Assembly: GCF_002554795.1 (NCBI RefSeq)
Contig: NZ_PDEQ01000001.1
Span: 310,001-374,000 of the forward strand
Direction: 5' to 3'
Source: Longibacter salinarum
GTDB taxonomy: Bacteria; Bacteroidota; Rhodothermia; Rhodothermales; Salinibacteraceae
DNA: 64,000 nt
The translations under genes and the position numbers were made by a program. How positions within the stretch are numbered: the first letter of the stretch is position 1; each line of letters opens with the position of its first letter. Shown here one piece after another: positions 25,045-28,111 of this stretch. The notes beneath the pieces were generated by a model that ran no database searches, was not told the DNA's origin, and saw only the letters and a list, made by a program, of their open reading frames with translations.

Positions 25045-26283
25045 TCATTCCTCTTCTTTGGGGCGCCACGTGGCCTGTGGGTCCATGTCGTCAGCAACAC
25101 CCGAGTCCGTCCCGAGGTGTGAAATGTCGGGGATGCGACCACGGCGGGTCTTCGGAGGAACCATCGTTCGCATGGATTCAAGCTTTCCGTAGCAGAGCAG
25201 GCGATCGTGCGGCTGCAGGACGCGGCTCGCCCTCGGGTTCGGGACGCCCTTTGCTCCACGATACAACATGAGAACGTTGATGTCCCGCTCGCGGAGCCCT
25301 GAGTTGGCGATCGTCCGACCGACATATTCCGATCCCGGTGGCACATGAATCTCGGTTACGCCGTACCCTGTGCTGACGGTCAGACGCTGGCGTAAATCGA
25401 TTTCGGGAAAGTCGACCTGGGTGCGCATGTAGTCGATGATCGAGCCGGCCACGTCGAGGTTGGTGCATGTCTCGATGCCCTCCAGACCGGGGGATGAGTT
25501 GACCTCCATGATCTGCGGGCCGTCGTTTGCTTCTAACATGTCAACGCCTGCAACCCGCAGACCCATGATCTGGGCAGCACGAACAGCTGTTTCGCGATAA
25601 TGGTCGTCCAGCTCGACCGCCTCCGTCTGGCCACCGCGATGGACGTTGCTCCGGTACTCGTCGCCCTGAGCCACCCGGCGCATGGCCGCCACGACGGTAT
25701 CGCCCACGACCAGGGCGCGAATGTCACGACCCTTGCTCTCCGACACGAACTTCTGAACGAGGACATTCTGTTTCGCGCTCTGCAGCGTCTCGATAATAGC
25801 CTGCGCGACCTTGACGGAGTCGGCCAGGATGACGCCGATGCCCTGCGTACCCTCGATAAGCTTAATGATGACCGGCGCACCGCCCACGCGCTCGATTGCA
25901 GGAATAACATCATTTCGATCTCGCACGAACGCGGTTTCCGGAATGCCAATCTGATGTCGGCTCAGGATCTGGAGGGAGCGGAGCTTGTCGCGCGAGTTGG
26001 AGATGCCGGCCGCCGTATTAGCGCAGTATACGCCCATCTGCTCGAATTGCCGAACCACTGCTGTCCCAAAGTAAGAGATCGATGCACCGATACGAGGAAG
26101 GACCGCGTCGTACTCGCTGAGCTTCTTCGATCGGAAAAACAGTTCAGGCGTGCCCTTCTCCAGGTCGATTGAAAATTTGAGTGTGTCCAGCACCTTGACT
26201 TCGCAGCTACGTTGCTCGGCGGCTTCTCTCAGGCGACGGGTGCTGTAACACTTGGGACTGCGCGACAGGATCGCAAGCTTCAT
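25045..26283 (-). CDS. rimK: RimK-type ATP-grasp ligase fused to an RCK_C domain
   Basis: A 412-residue protein. Residues 1-290 match RimK: an N-terminal pre-ATP-grasp domain (MKLAILSRSP), an ATP-grasp core with PVIIKLIEGTQGIGV (about 137-151), VQKFVSESKGRDIRALVVG (about 176-194) and the metal-binding MEVNSSPGLEGIE (259-271). RimK adds glutamates to the C terminus of ribosomal protein S6 or makes poly-glutamate. E. coli RimK ends near residue 300. Here about 110 residues follow, and 305-372 (GYGVTEIHVPPGSEYVGR, then VLQPHDRLLCYGK) match the TrkA-C/RCK_C ligand-binding domain of potassium channels and carriers. The tail after 380 is charged. This suggests control by a small ligand (inference). 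Confidence 0.93.
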   Translation of the reverse strand: MKLAILSRSPKCYSTRRLREAAEQRSCEVKVLDTLKFSIDLEKGTPELFFRSKKLSEYDAVLPRIGASISYFGTAVVRQFEQMGVYCANTAAGISNSRDKLRSLQILSRHQIGIPETAFVRDRNDVIPAIERVGGAPVIIKLIEGTQGIGVILADSVKVAQAIIETLQSAKQNVLVQKFVSESKGRDIRALVVGDTVVAAMRRVAQGDEYRSNVHRGGQTEAVELDDHYRETAVRAAQIMGLRVAGVDMLEANDGPQIMEVNSSPGLEGIETCTNLDVAGSIIDYMRTQVDFPEIDLRQRLTVSTGYGVTEIHVPPGSEYVGRTIANSGLRERDINVLMLYRGAKGVPNPRASRVLQPHDRLLCYGKLESMRTMVPPKTRRGRIPDISHLGTDSGVADDMDPQATWRPKEEE

Positions 26284-26412
26284 GCAGGATTGGGGGGTAC
26301 GGATTGTCGATTGCGGATTGTAAATCTTTCCTTCGCCCGTGTCATGATTTTAGACGTCAACCGTACGCTGCGCACGTTCGTGCGTTGGTATGAAAGTACA
26401 TATAAACGGTAG

Positions 26413-26500
26413 CACGTCAACACGTCAACACATTGACACCTTCACACGTCGACACTTCGACACCTTCATACCTCGACACCTTCACACCTTTACACTTTCG
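26413..26500. repeat. Array of eleven degenerate 8-bp tandem repeats
   Basis: Eleven consecutive 8-bp units begin at 26413. Units 1-3 are CACGTCAA, CACGTCAA, CACATTGA; units 4-7 CACCTTCA, CACGTCGA, CACTTCGA, CACCTTCA; units 8-11 TACCTCGA, CACCTTCA, CACCTTTA, CACTTTCG. The consensus is CACcTtcA. The array fills the rimB-rimK interval near the rimB end and covers the last four codons and stop codon (26490-26492) of rimB. The strand composition is strongly skewed (almost no G on the plus strand outside the GT/CG steps), so the rimB-rimK transcript would be purine-rich here. It is not a CRISPR: there are no spacers and the unit is too short. Confidence 0.9.
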
Positions 26501-26942
26501 GTTTGCCGCCTGCGTACGAGGCGCCTGGATCGACGAGCATGCGGCGGCGGATGGCCTGCCGGCCGAGGAGCATGCGAAAGCCCATTTTATCGCGCCGGGC
26601 GAGGGTTAGTTCAATATCCCAGGTGTGCCCGAGCACGCGGACAGGAGTGAGAATGACGACGCGTTCTTGCTTCTGACCGCTGGAGCTGCGCACGCTACGG
26701 ACGTCGTGCACGCTCGCTTCTGCAATGACCGAGCGCTCCTTGCTCCGTTGCACGGGGTGAATTTCGAAGCGAACACGTTCGATCCCATTTTCCTGAAAGC
26801 GCTCAATGTTGAACGCATGGAGCGCGGACGATCGCGCACCTGTATCCACTTTTGCCTTGATCCAGGAGATATTTAGATCTGGAAGTGCCAGCCACTCGCG
26901 CCAGCCGATGATTGGCAGATTCGGGTTGGGCTTCTTCGGCAT
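26490..26942 (-). CDS. rimB: RimB-like retropepsin-fold protease (annotated as 'ATP-dependent zinc protease')
   Basis: A 150-residue single-domain protein. ISWIKAKVDTGARSSALHA places the aspartic-protease motif D33-T34-G35-A36 after a beta strand, as in RimB and clan-AA retropepsins. PIIGWREWLALPDLN near the N terminus, the RLVRV-like strand ERVRFEIHP and LLGRQAIRRRMLVDP near the end complete the family signature. The widely used name zinc protease rests on old annotation; no zinc motif is visible. In Pseudomonas RimB trims glutamates from RimK-modified S6. Here it lies immediately upstream of rimK. ATG 26942 is preferred since upstream residues are not conserved-looking. Confidence 0.85.
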   Translation of the reverse strand: MPKKPNPNLPIIGWREWLALPDLNISWIKAKVDTGARSSALHAFNIERFQENGIERVRFEIHPVQRSKERSVIAEASVHDVRSVRSSSGQKQERVVILTPVRVLGHTWDIELTLARRDKMGFRMLLGRQAIRRRMLVDPGASYAGGKPKV

Positions 26943-27192
26943 GTAATCGAGCTTCGAGCGGGGGGCGGTAGACTCAATAACGTAATGGACGCCAGCGGGA
27001 CGAATCAAGAAAAACGGATAGGTTGTCTACGTTTTCCGATTTTCCGCAGGTGAACGCTGAATCGATTCTTGATATAGCGTGTGTTGCGTTCTTCAAACAC
27101 GAAATTCGTCTTTGTGGATGGCCTTCGGAACCGCTTTCATCTAGGTTATCGTCCCAACCCGCACTTCGTCCTTTCACCATACCCAGTTTCTT

Positions 27193-28047
27193 ATGTCGAT
27201 TGATCGAATCGCCGTCGTTGGTGGCGGCACGATGGGAAATGGCATTGCCCATGTCTTCGCTCTCAGCGGCCGTCACGTCACCATCGTGGACCTCAACGAG
27301 GACGTTCTCGACGATAGCGTCTCGACCATCGAGTCCAACCTGAATCGCCAGCTCAAGAAGGAGCGGATCACGGAGGACGAAAAGCAGGCGACGCTGGACC
27401 GAATCGACACGTCGACGGCGATTGCAGAGGGCGTGAGCGATGTCGACCTCGTCGTAGAGGCAGTGAGCGAGACGATGGAGGTGAAAGCGTCGGTCTTTCA
27501 GCAACTAGACGAGCACGCGCCAGATCACGCCATTCTCGCGTCGAACACGTCGTCGATCTCCATCACGGCCCTCGCGGCGGAGACGGACCGCCCGGAGCAG
27601 GTCATCGGGATGCACTTCTTCAACCCGGTGCCGGTAATGAAACTCGTCGAGATCGTGCGCGGGCTCGTAACGAGCGATGAGATCTACGACACGATCGAGG
27701 CGCTGGCCGAAGATCTTGGCAAGACGCCGGTAGAGGTCGAGGACTTCCCGGGCTTCGTCTCGAATCGGATCCTGATGCCGATGATCAACGAGGCGGTCTT
27801 CTGCGTGATGGAGGGGGTCGCTTCGGTCGAAGACATCGACACGGTGATGAAGCTGGGAATGAACCACCCGATGGGCCCGCTGACGCTGGCCGACTTTATC
27901 GGCCTGGACGTCTGCCTCAACATCATGGAGGTGCTGCACGGCGAGCTTGGCGACGACAAATACCGCCCGTGCCCGCTGTTGCGCCGCATGGTGACGGCTG
28001 GTAAGCTTGGCCGGAAGACCGGCGCCGGCTTTTACGACTACGAATAA
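27193..28047 (+). CDS. hbd: 3-hydroxyacyl-CoA (3-hydroxybutyryl-CoA) dehydrogenase
   Basis: A 284-residue NAD-dependent enzyme of short-chain fatty acid and butyrate-type metabolism, oxidising 3-hydroxyacyl-CoA to 3-ketoacyl-CoA. The Rossmann fingerprint [14 protein letters not shown] is at about 9-22 and the acidic pair VDLNEDV follows. The catalytic dyad region [14 protein letters not shown] contains the active-site His, and E in the ENFxGF-like [15 protein letters not shown] segment supports the family. Length equals the stand-alone clostridial and mycobacterial Hbd (about 280-290). It is monocistronic, divergent from rimB, and closed by a strong terminator. Confidence 0.95.
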
Positions 28048-28111
28048 TGACACATCGAAATGCTGAGTGCGAAGGGCGAAGTGGATCTCGTCTCTCCGGC
28101 TGCAGAACGCG

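Follow-up and report, generated by a model that had tools for sequence, protein, structure and literature searches.

The eleven-unit octamer array at positions 26413-26500 of the window, by which we mean the whole 64,000-nucleotide stretch of Longibacter salinarum DNA analysed here, probably belongs to a family of degenerate tandem octamers that is specific to the genus and located in intergenic DNA. The explanation that we favour as likely is that these are slippage-prone, dispersed spacer repeats particular to the genus, whose orientation at gene edges is held by selection. The array would then form the end of a rimB-like gene and one flank of the spacer that separates this gene from a rimK-like gene, quite possibly without a dedicated role in the control of RimB or RimK. 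Our confidence is reasonable rather than high, and it applies to the explanation as a whole, the role of the array at rimB included.

The first-pass annotation had described an in-phase array of eleven 8-bp units at this place, and the array is real. Identity at a lag of 8 is found at 53 of 72 positions, as compared with a maximum lag match of 41 among 100 dinucleotide shuffles (whole window, lags 4-30). TRF detects the array at periods 8 and 24, and the octamer HMM scores it at 104.6 bits on the plus strand (11 units YACNTYNA). From 26413 onwards, units 1 to 6 read CACGTCAA CACGTCAA CACATTGA CACCTTCA CACGTCGA CACTTCGA and units 7 to 11 read CACCTTCA TACCTCGA CACCTTCA CACCTTTA CACTTTCG; the final base of unit 11 is off the consensus. 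Within the unit, positions 1, 2, 3, 5 and 8 hardly vary (2 deviations in 55), whereas positions 4, 6 and 7 are variable (18 in 33). None of 20000 random placements gave deviations as uneven. Since the window array was chosen without a search pattern, this contrast is free of the corresponding bias. The same unit positions are also conserved in further arrays of the two species compared, L. salinarum and the same-genus genome G001, where loci outside the window were selected by a pattern fixing several of these positions, so that their unit statistics are biased towards it. An intrinsic terminator was considered for the window array and rejected: its sense strand forms no stable hairpin, being no better than shuffles (z -0.30; antisense z -1.74).

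The gene at 26490-27008 (minus strand) encodes a RimB-like retropepsin. Downstream of it, a RimK-like ATP-grasp ligase is encoded at 25045-26283, also on the minus strand. Both names rest on matches at or below NCBI equivalog cut-offs. The RimB-like gene matches NF052261 with an E-value of 4.3e-35, below the curated cut-off, and its name has 120.7 bits against an equivalog cut-off of 200. The RimK-like gene matches PRK10446 with 330.9 bits for a cut-off of 331, and the RimK family model TIGR00768 passes (261 bits, cut-off 143). The C-rich strand of the array is the plus strand. Its G-rich strand, (TGRANGTR)n, is the sense strand of both genes, and it heads away from the rimB stop codon.

The array had been said to run across the end of rimB. 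The stop codon TAA (26490-26492) is indeed inside unit 10, but only unit 11 holds rimB codons, the last ones of the gene; units 1 to 9 and most of unit 10 lie 3' of the stop. Gain or loss of units, which had been expected both to shift the rimB frame and to alter the rimB-rimK spacing, does alter the spacing, but leaves the frame unaffected for units 1 to 9 and most of unit 10. Because 10 of the 11 units are wholly or mostly beyond the reading frame, the proposal of a phase-variation tract in rimB is not supported, and a phase switch of rimB by the array is unlikely. Unit number and spacer length do vary. At the G001 orthologue an array is located at the same rimB edge, with 8 HMM-counted units versus 10 in the window array and a rimB-rimK spacer of about 300 bp versus 206 bp here. 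The RimB stop codon of G001 is also inside its array, and the rimK end of G001 bears an additional inverted array. Separately, a scan of genome contigs for RimB gave 52 relatives.

The octamer YACNTYCA is present at no fewer than 66 sites in this 4.4-Mb genome (G000), a lower bound from a list compiled by a search with spacer DNA and by pattern searches. Because these sites lie next to other genes, the suggested control specific to RimB and RimK is not supported. Queried with the rimB-rimK spacer DNA, the own genome returned 14 matches; patterns spanning some two and a half units produced 77 and 178. With a strict pattern, 107 matches were found in the own genome. Among 394 genomes of the phylum, 10 have any match and 384 have none, the highest count outside the own genome being 6. 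A related CAC pattern has 95 matches in G001, which is 83% complete in 390 contigs and is the only same-genus genome searched; elsewhere it has 5 matches in G007, 5 in G006, 1 in G002 and 0 in G017. Applied to loci picked by patterns, the octamer HMM identified 87 arrays in the own genome, spread over 63 loci, and 51 in G001, spread over 38. A mononucleotide shuffle gave 0 arrays. The reversed-sequence control gave 79 and is uninformative, as the unit almost forms a mirror repeat; the reversed-pattern control of the genome pattern searches is equally weak for the octamer. Among open-licence papers, we found none on this octamer.

The octamer sites are unevenly distributed over the own genome: 2 are on contig C1 (878 kb, P 6e-5) and 1 is on C6 (388 kb), while C4 (434 kb) has 13 and C7 (228 kb) has 7. 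As a separate observation, the genome carries two full-length DnaA genes (G000:C7:49855-51387 and G000:C1:57610-59280). In a set of 21 genomes, two or more DnaA over the cut-off were also found in G001, G002, G006, G008, G012, G022 and G026.

The arrays avoid genes and are oriented with respect to them. None of the 138 arrays of the two species is inside a called gene. At edge contacts, defined as arrays within 20 bp of a gene, the G-rich strand is directed outwards from the gene in 77 of 81 cases, namely 60 of 64 at stops (60:4) and all 17 at starts (17:0). These numbers depend on genes called with a simple codon-usage scorer, so that starts are approximate; the scorer missed rimB in locus L009, where the right gap is wrong and the contact is excluded from the 81. 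For arrays with a gene on both flanks, and with the C-rich strand taken as the reading direction, a coding sequence is nearer on the right than on the left in 66 of 73 cases (own genome) and 32 of 35 cases (G001); 14 and 16 arrays, respectively, with no gene on one side were set aside. Array-free DNA after stops has C in excess over G (skew -0.081 for 158 genes and -0.132 for 58 genes). This skew is opposite to that of the arrays, and the polarity is therefore not a matter of background composition. G-tracts are scarce: four or more G3 tracts are present in 6 of the 138 arrays and none in 73. Inverted pairs of arrays within one spacer are found in loci such as L046, L059, L083, L108 and L112, without being general.

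The polarity extends to units of another length. In the octamer loci, a scan of periods 5 to 12 found only periods 7 and 8 in intergenic DNA, and three heptamers, GTTCARN, GATTGNG and GCGAARY, follow the octamer polarity at 53 of their 55 edge contacts when both species are counted; the heptamer HMMs are noisier for G001 than for the own genome. Two such arrays lie within the window. Five GATTGNG units (26287-26325, plus strand, 39.9 bits) lie 3 bp from the rimK start, and four GCGAARY units (28055-28083, plus strand, 35.8 bits) lie 7 bp past the stop of the 3-hydroxybutyryl-CoA dehydrogenase-like gene (27193-28047); in both, the G-rich strand leads away from the gene. The heptamer GTTCANNGTTCANNGTTCA has 332 matches in G000, 115 in G001, 2 in G029 and 0 in the remaining 28 of 31 genomes, with 0 to 1 for the reversed-pattern control. 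The GTTCA heptamer is thus confined to the genus among the 31 genomes, save for the 2 matches in G029. Among the matches listed, it is nearly absent from contig C1. Two further octamer families, O2 and O3, were discarded after their seeded HMMs drifted onto the main octamer. Provision of stop codons by the G-rich strand suits the octamer, whose arrays wholly contain the stop codon in 22 of the 60 stop contacts, but it fails for the shared polarity, since the GTTCAGG heptamer has no stop in its G-rich strand. No tested property accounts for the polarity at both starts and stops.

Comparison of the two species separates what is kept from what changes. Seventeen homologous edges, of 48 queried, were found in the fetched G001 loci. 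With orientation tested on both strands, 16 bear an array in the same orientation, none in the opposite one, and one has no array; as the G001 loci were fetched for holding arrays, the comparison is uninformative on array loss. Sixteen arrays have an orthologous G001 partner, sought on one strand; in none of these 16 pairs do the partners have equal numbers of units. Leave-pair-out unit profiles assign the right species to 28 of the 32 arrays. Site and orientation are therefore kept between the two species, and unit number and unit consensus are species-specific.

The left flanks of the arrays share repeats in 470 pairs and the right flanks in 38, which raised the idea that the array might be the tail end of a larger mobile element. 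This was rejected, as on inspection the flanks combine heptamers, hairpins resembling terminators and short stretches resembling the ends of elements, without forming a single body. An 18-bp palindrome, GTCGCACGGCCGTGCGAC, is found in 8 of the 63 own-genome loci (L049, L075, L079 and L095 among them) and in 0 of the 38 G001 loci; it looks like a common terminator or a small mobile hairpin. Two of the short sequences resembling element ends, CCGCCAAACAGGTT in 9 and ACTGTCCGGTAGCTA in 4 of the 63 own-genome loci, recur in none of the 38 G001 loci; they are located in the spacers of loci such as L067, L094, L107, L078 and L079.

Within arrays, similarity between neighbouring units exceeds that expected from shuffled order, with z values of 6.9 and 5.6 at lag 2 and of 3.5 and 3.6 at lag 1 in the two species. 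At positions 2544-2663 of locus L100, a single octamer array includes 15 identical copies of AACGTCCA (minus strand), which points to recent expansion. The similarity at the two lags and the L100 run fit slippage in 8- and 16-bp steps. In the explanation that we favour, units would multiply by replication slippage and their variants may spread between loci, thereby turning species-typical. Selection would purge arrays from coding and promoter DNA, and at gene edges it would permit a single orientation only. Slippage at one locus alone cannot yield a species-wide consensus; for that, either variants must spread from locus to locus or a constraint must be shared. Against this explanation, neutral decay fails to account for five near-fixed and three variable positions in the unit.

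This last point bears on a reading of the arrays as candidate protein-binding sites, in DNA or in the G-rich 3' or C-rich 5' untranslated RNA, in which the specificity of the protein sets the core of the unit and its species dialect. A near-fixed core with variable free positions is seen in the unbiased window array as well as in both species, conserved sites carry a species-typical consensus, and a start-proximal regulatory role of this type is proposed for the TAACTGA repeats in the available part of PMC4679880. However, the sites occur both before and after genes, and relative to transcription both strands are used (60 stop and 17 start contacts), so that no single RNA role fits, and several different unit families share the polarity rule. 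We consider binding by a protein unlikely, though worth keeping in mind. A role as putative Rho-loading (rut-like) sites, ending transcription that enters a gene from outside, agrees with the composition of the strand read on entering the gene, which is C-rich and G-poor with regular YC steps. Yet at the 17 start contacts the array directly precedes the start codon, where it would terminate the gene's own transcript, and the fixed A and T positions are not needed by Rho. To our knowledge, moreover, cyanobacteria have no Rho. The same polarity is described for a member of that group, Nostoc, in the accessible text of PMC4692102. Such a function is accordingly very unlikely.

Still less probable is the writing of arrays at broken DNA ends by a template-using, telomerase-like enzyme, which would extend the G-rich 3' strand away from the surviving gene. 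It would explain why the G-rich strand leads outward at both kinds of gene edge, start and stop, and the inverted pairs in single spacers, L046 for example, are consistent with it. The several unrelated units would however require several templates, and no PF00078 reverse transcriptase was found in G000 or G001; it is present in 4 of 31 genomes searched, none of them of this genus. Least credible is phase variation, with the array as a tract that would switch rimB or determine the RimB/RimK ratio. Tandem units whose number differs between species are what such a tract would offer, but the units are degenerate, most of them follow the stop codon and the family is widely dispersed. Beyond the favoured explanation, the reading that we hold to be the most open to further thought, while still doubting it, is a general, unrecognised process or selective rule that sets G-rich-outward tandem repeats of 7-8 bp at the edges of coding sequences in unrelated bacteria. 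It would act at starts and stops alike and independently of G-quadruplexes, and would include a species dialect of units and a dedicated recognition or writing factor.

Among known systems, the STRR heptamers of filamentous cyanobacteria are degenerate short tandem repeats dispersed between genes. The octamers resemble them in both respects; the STRR unit is a heptamer and the phylum is another one. Simple sequence repeats of contingency loci are near-perfect and are located in promoters or reading frames of switchable genes. Their unit number changes, as in the octamers, but a change of gene frame with unit number is not expected here, only unit 11 being coding. A single array of the octamer family is poor ground for inferring a regulatory role. 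TAACTGA heptamers occur in Beggiatoaceae, some cyanobacteria and Bacteroidetes, where they are abundant between genes and near start codons, according to the available portion of PMC4679880. There the unit is a different one, of fixed sequence, and in the principal genome of that study it lies mostly close to starts, whereas the octamer family is degenerate and found mainly at stop edges.

The closest parallel is with the GGGNATC G-quadruplex heptamers of Xanthomonas and Nostoc reported by Rehm et al. 2015 (PMC4692102). As far as the accessible text of that paper goes, these are intergenic, dispersed tandem repeats found near ORFs: those upstream lie on the non-coding strand, and those located at the stop or overlapping it lie on the coding strand. 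Sites are common to sibling species, unit number varies and no function was found. The octamers likewise lie outside coding sequences, are G-outward at starts and stops, as are the heptamers of this genus, and share sites between sibling species with varying unit number. Unlike the GGGNATC repeats, they have an 8-bp unit that seldom provides the G-tracts for a quadruplex, belong to another phylum and stand side by side with several other unit families. In the portion of the paper available, Rehm et al. settled neither the function nor the orientation of the G-rich heptamers and stressed their G-quadruplex potential (PMC4692102). As the octamers follow the same orientation rule with almost no G-tracts, the rule is suggested to have another cause. 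Two congeneric genomes with shared sites and differing unit dialects make this question of polarity testable.
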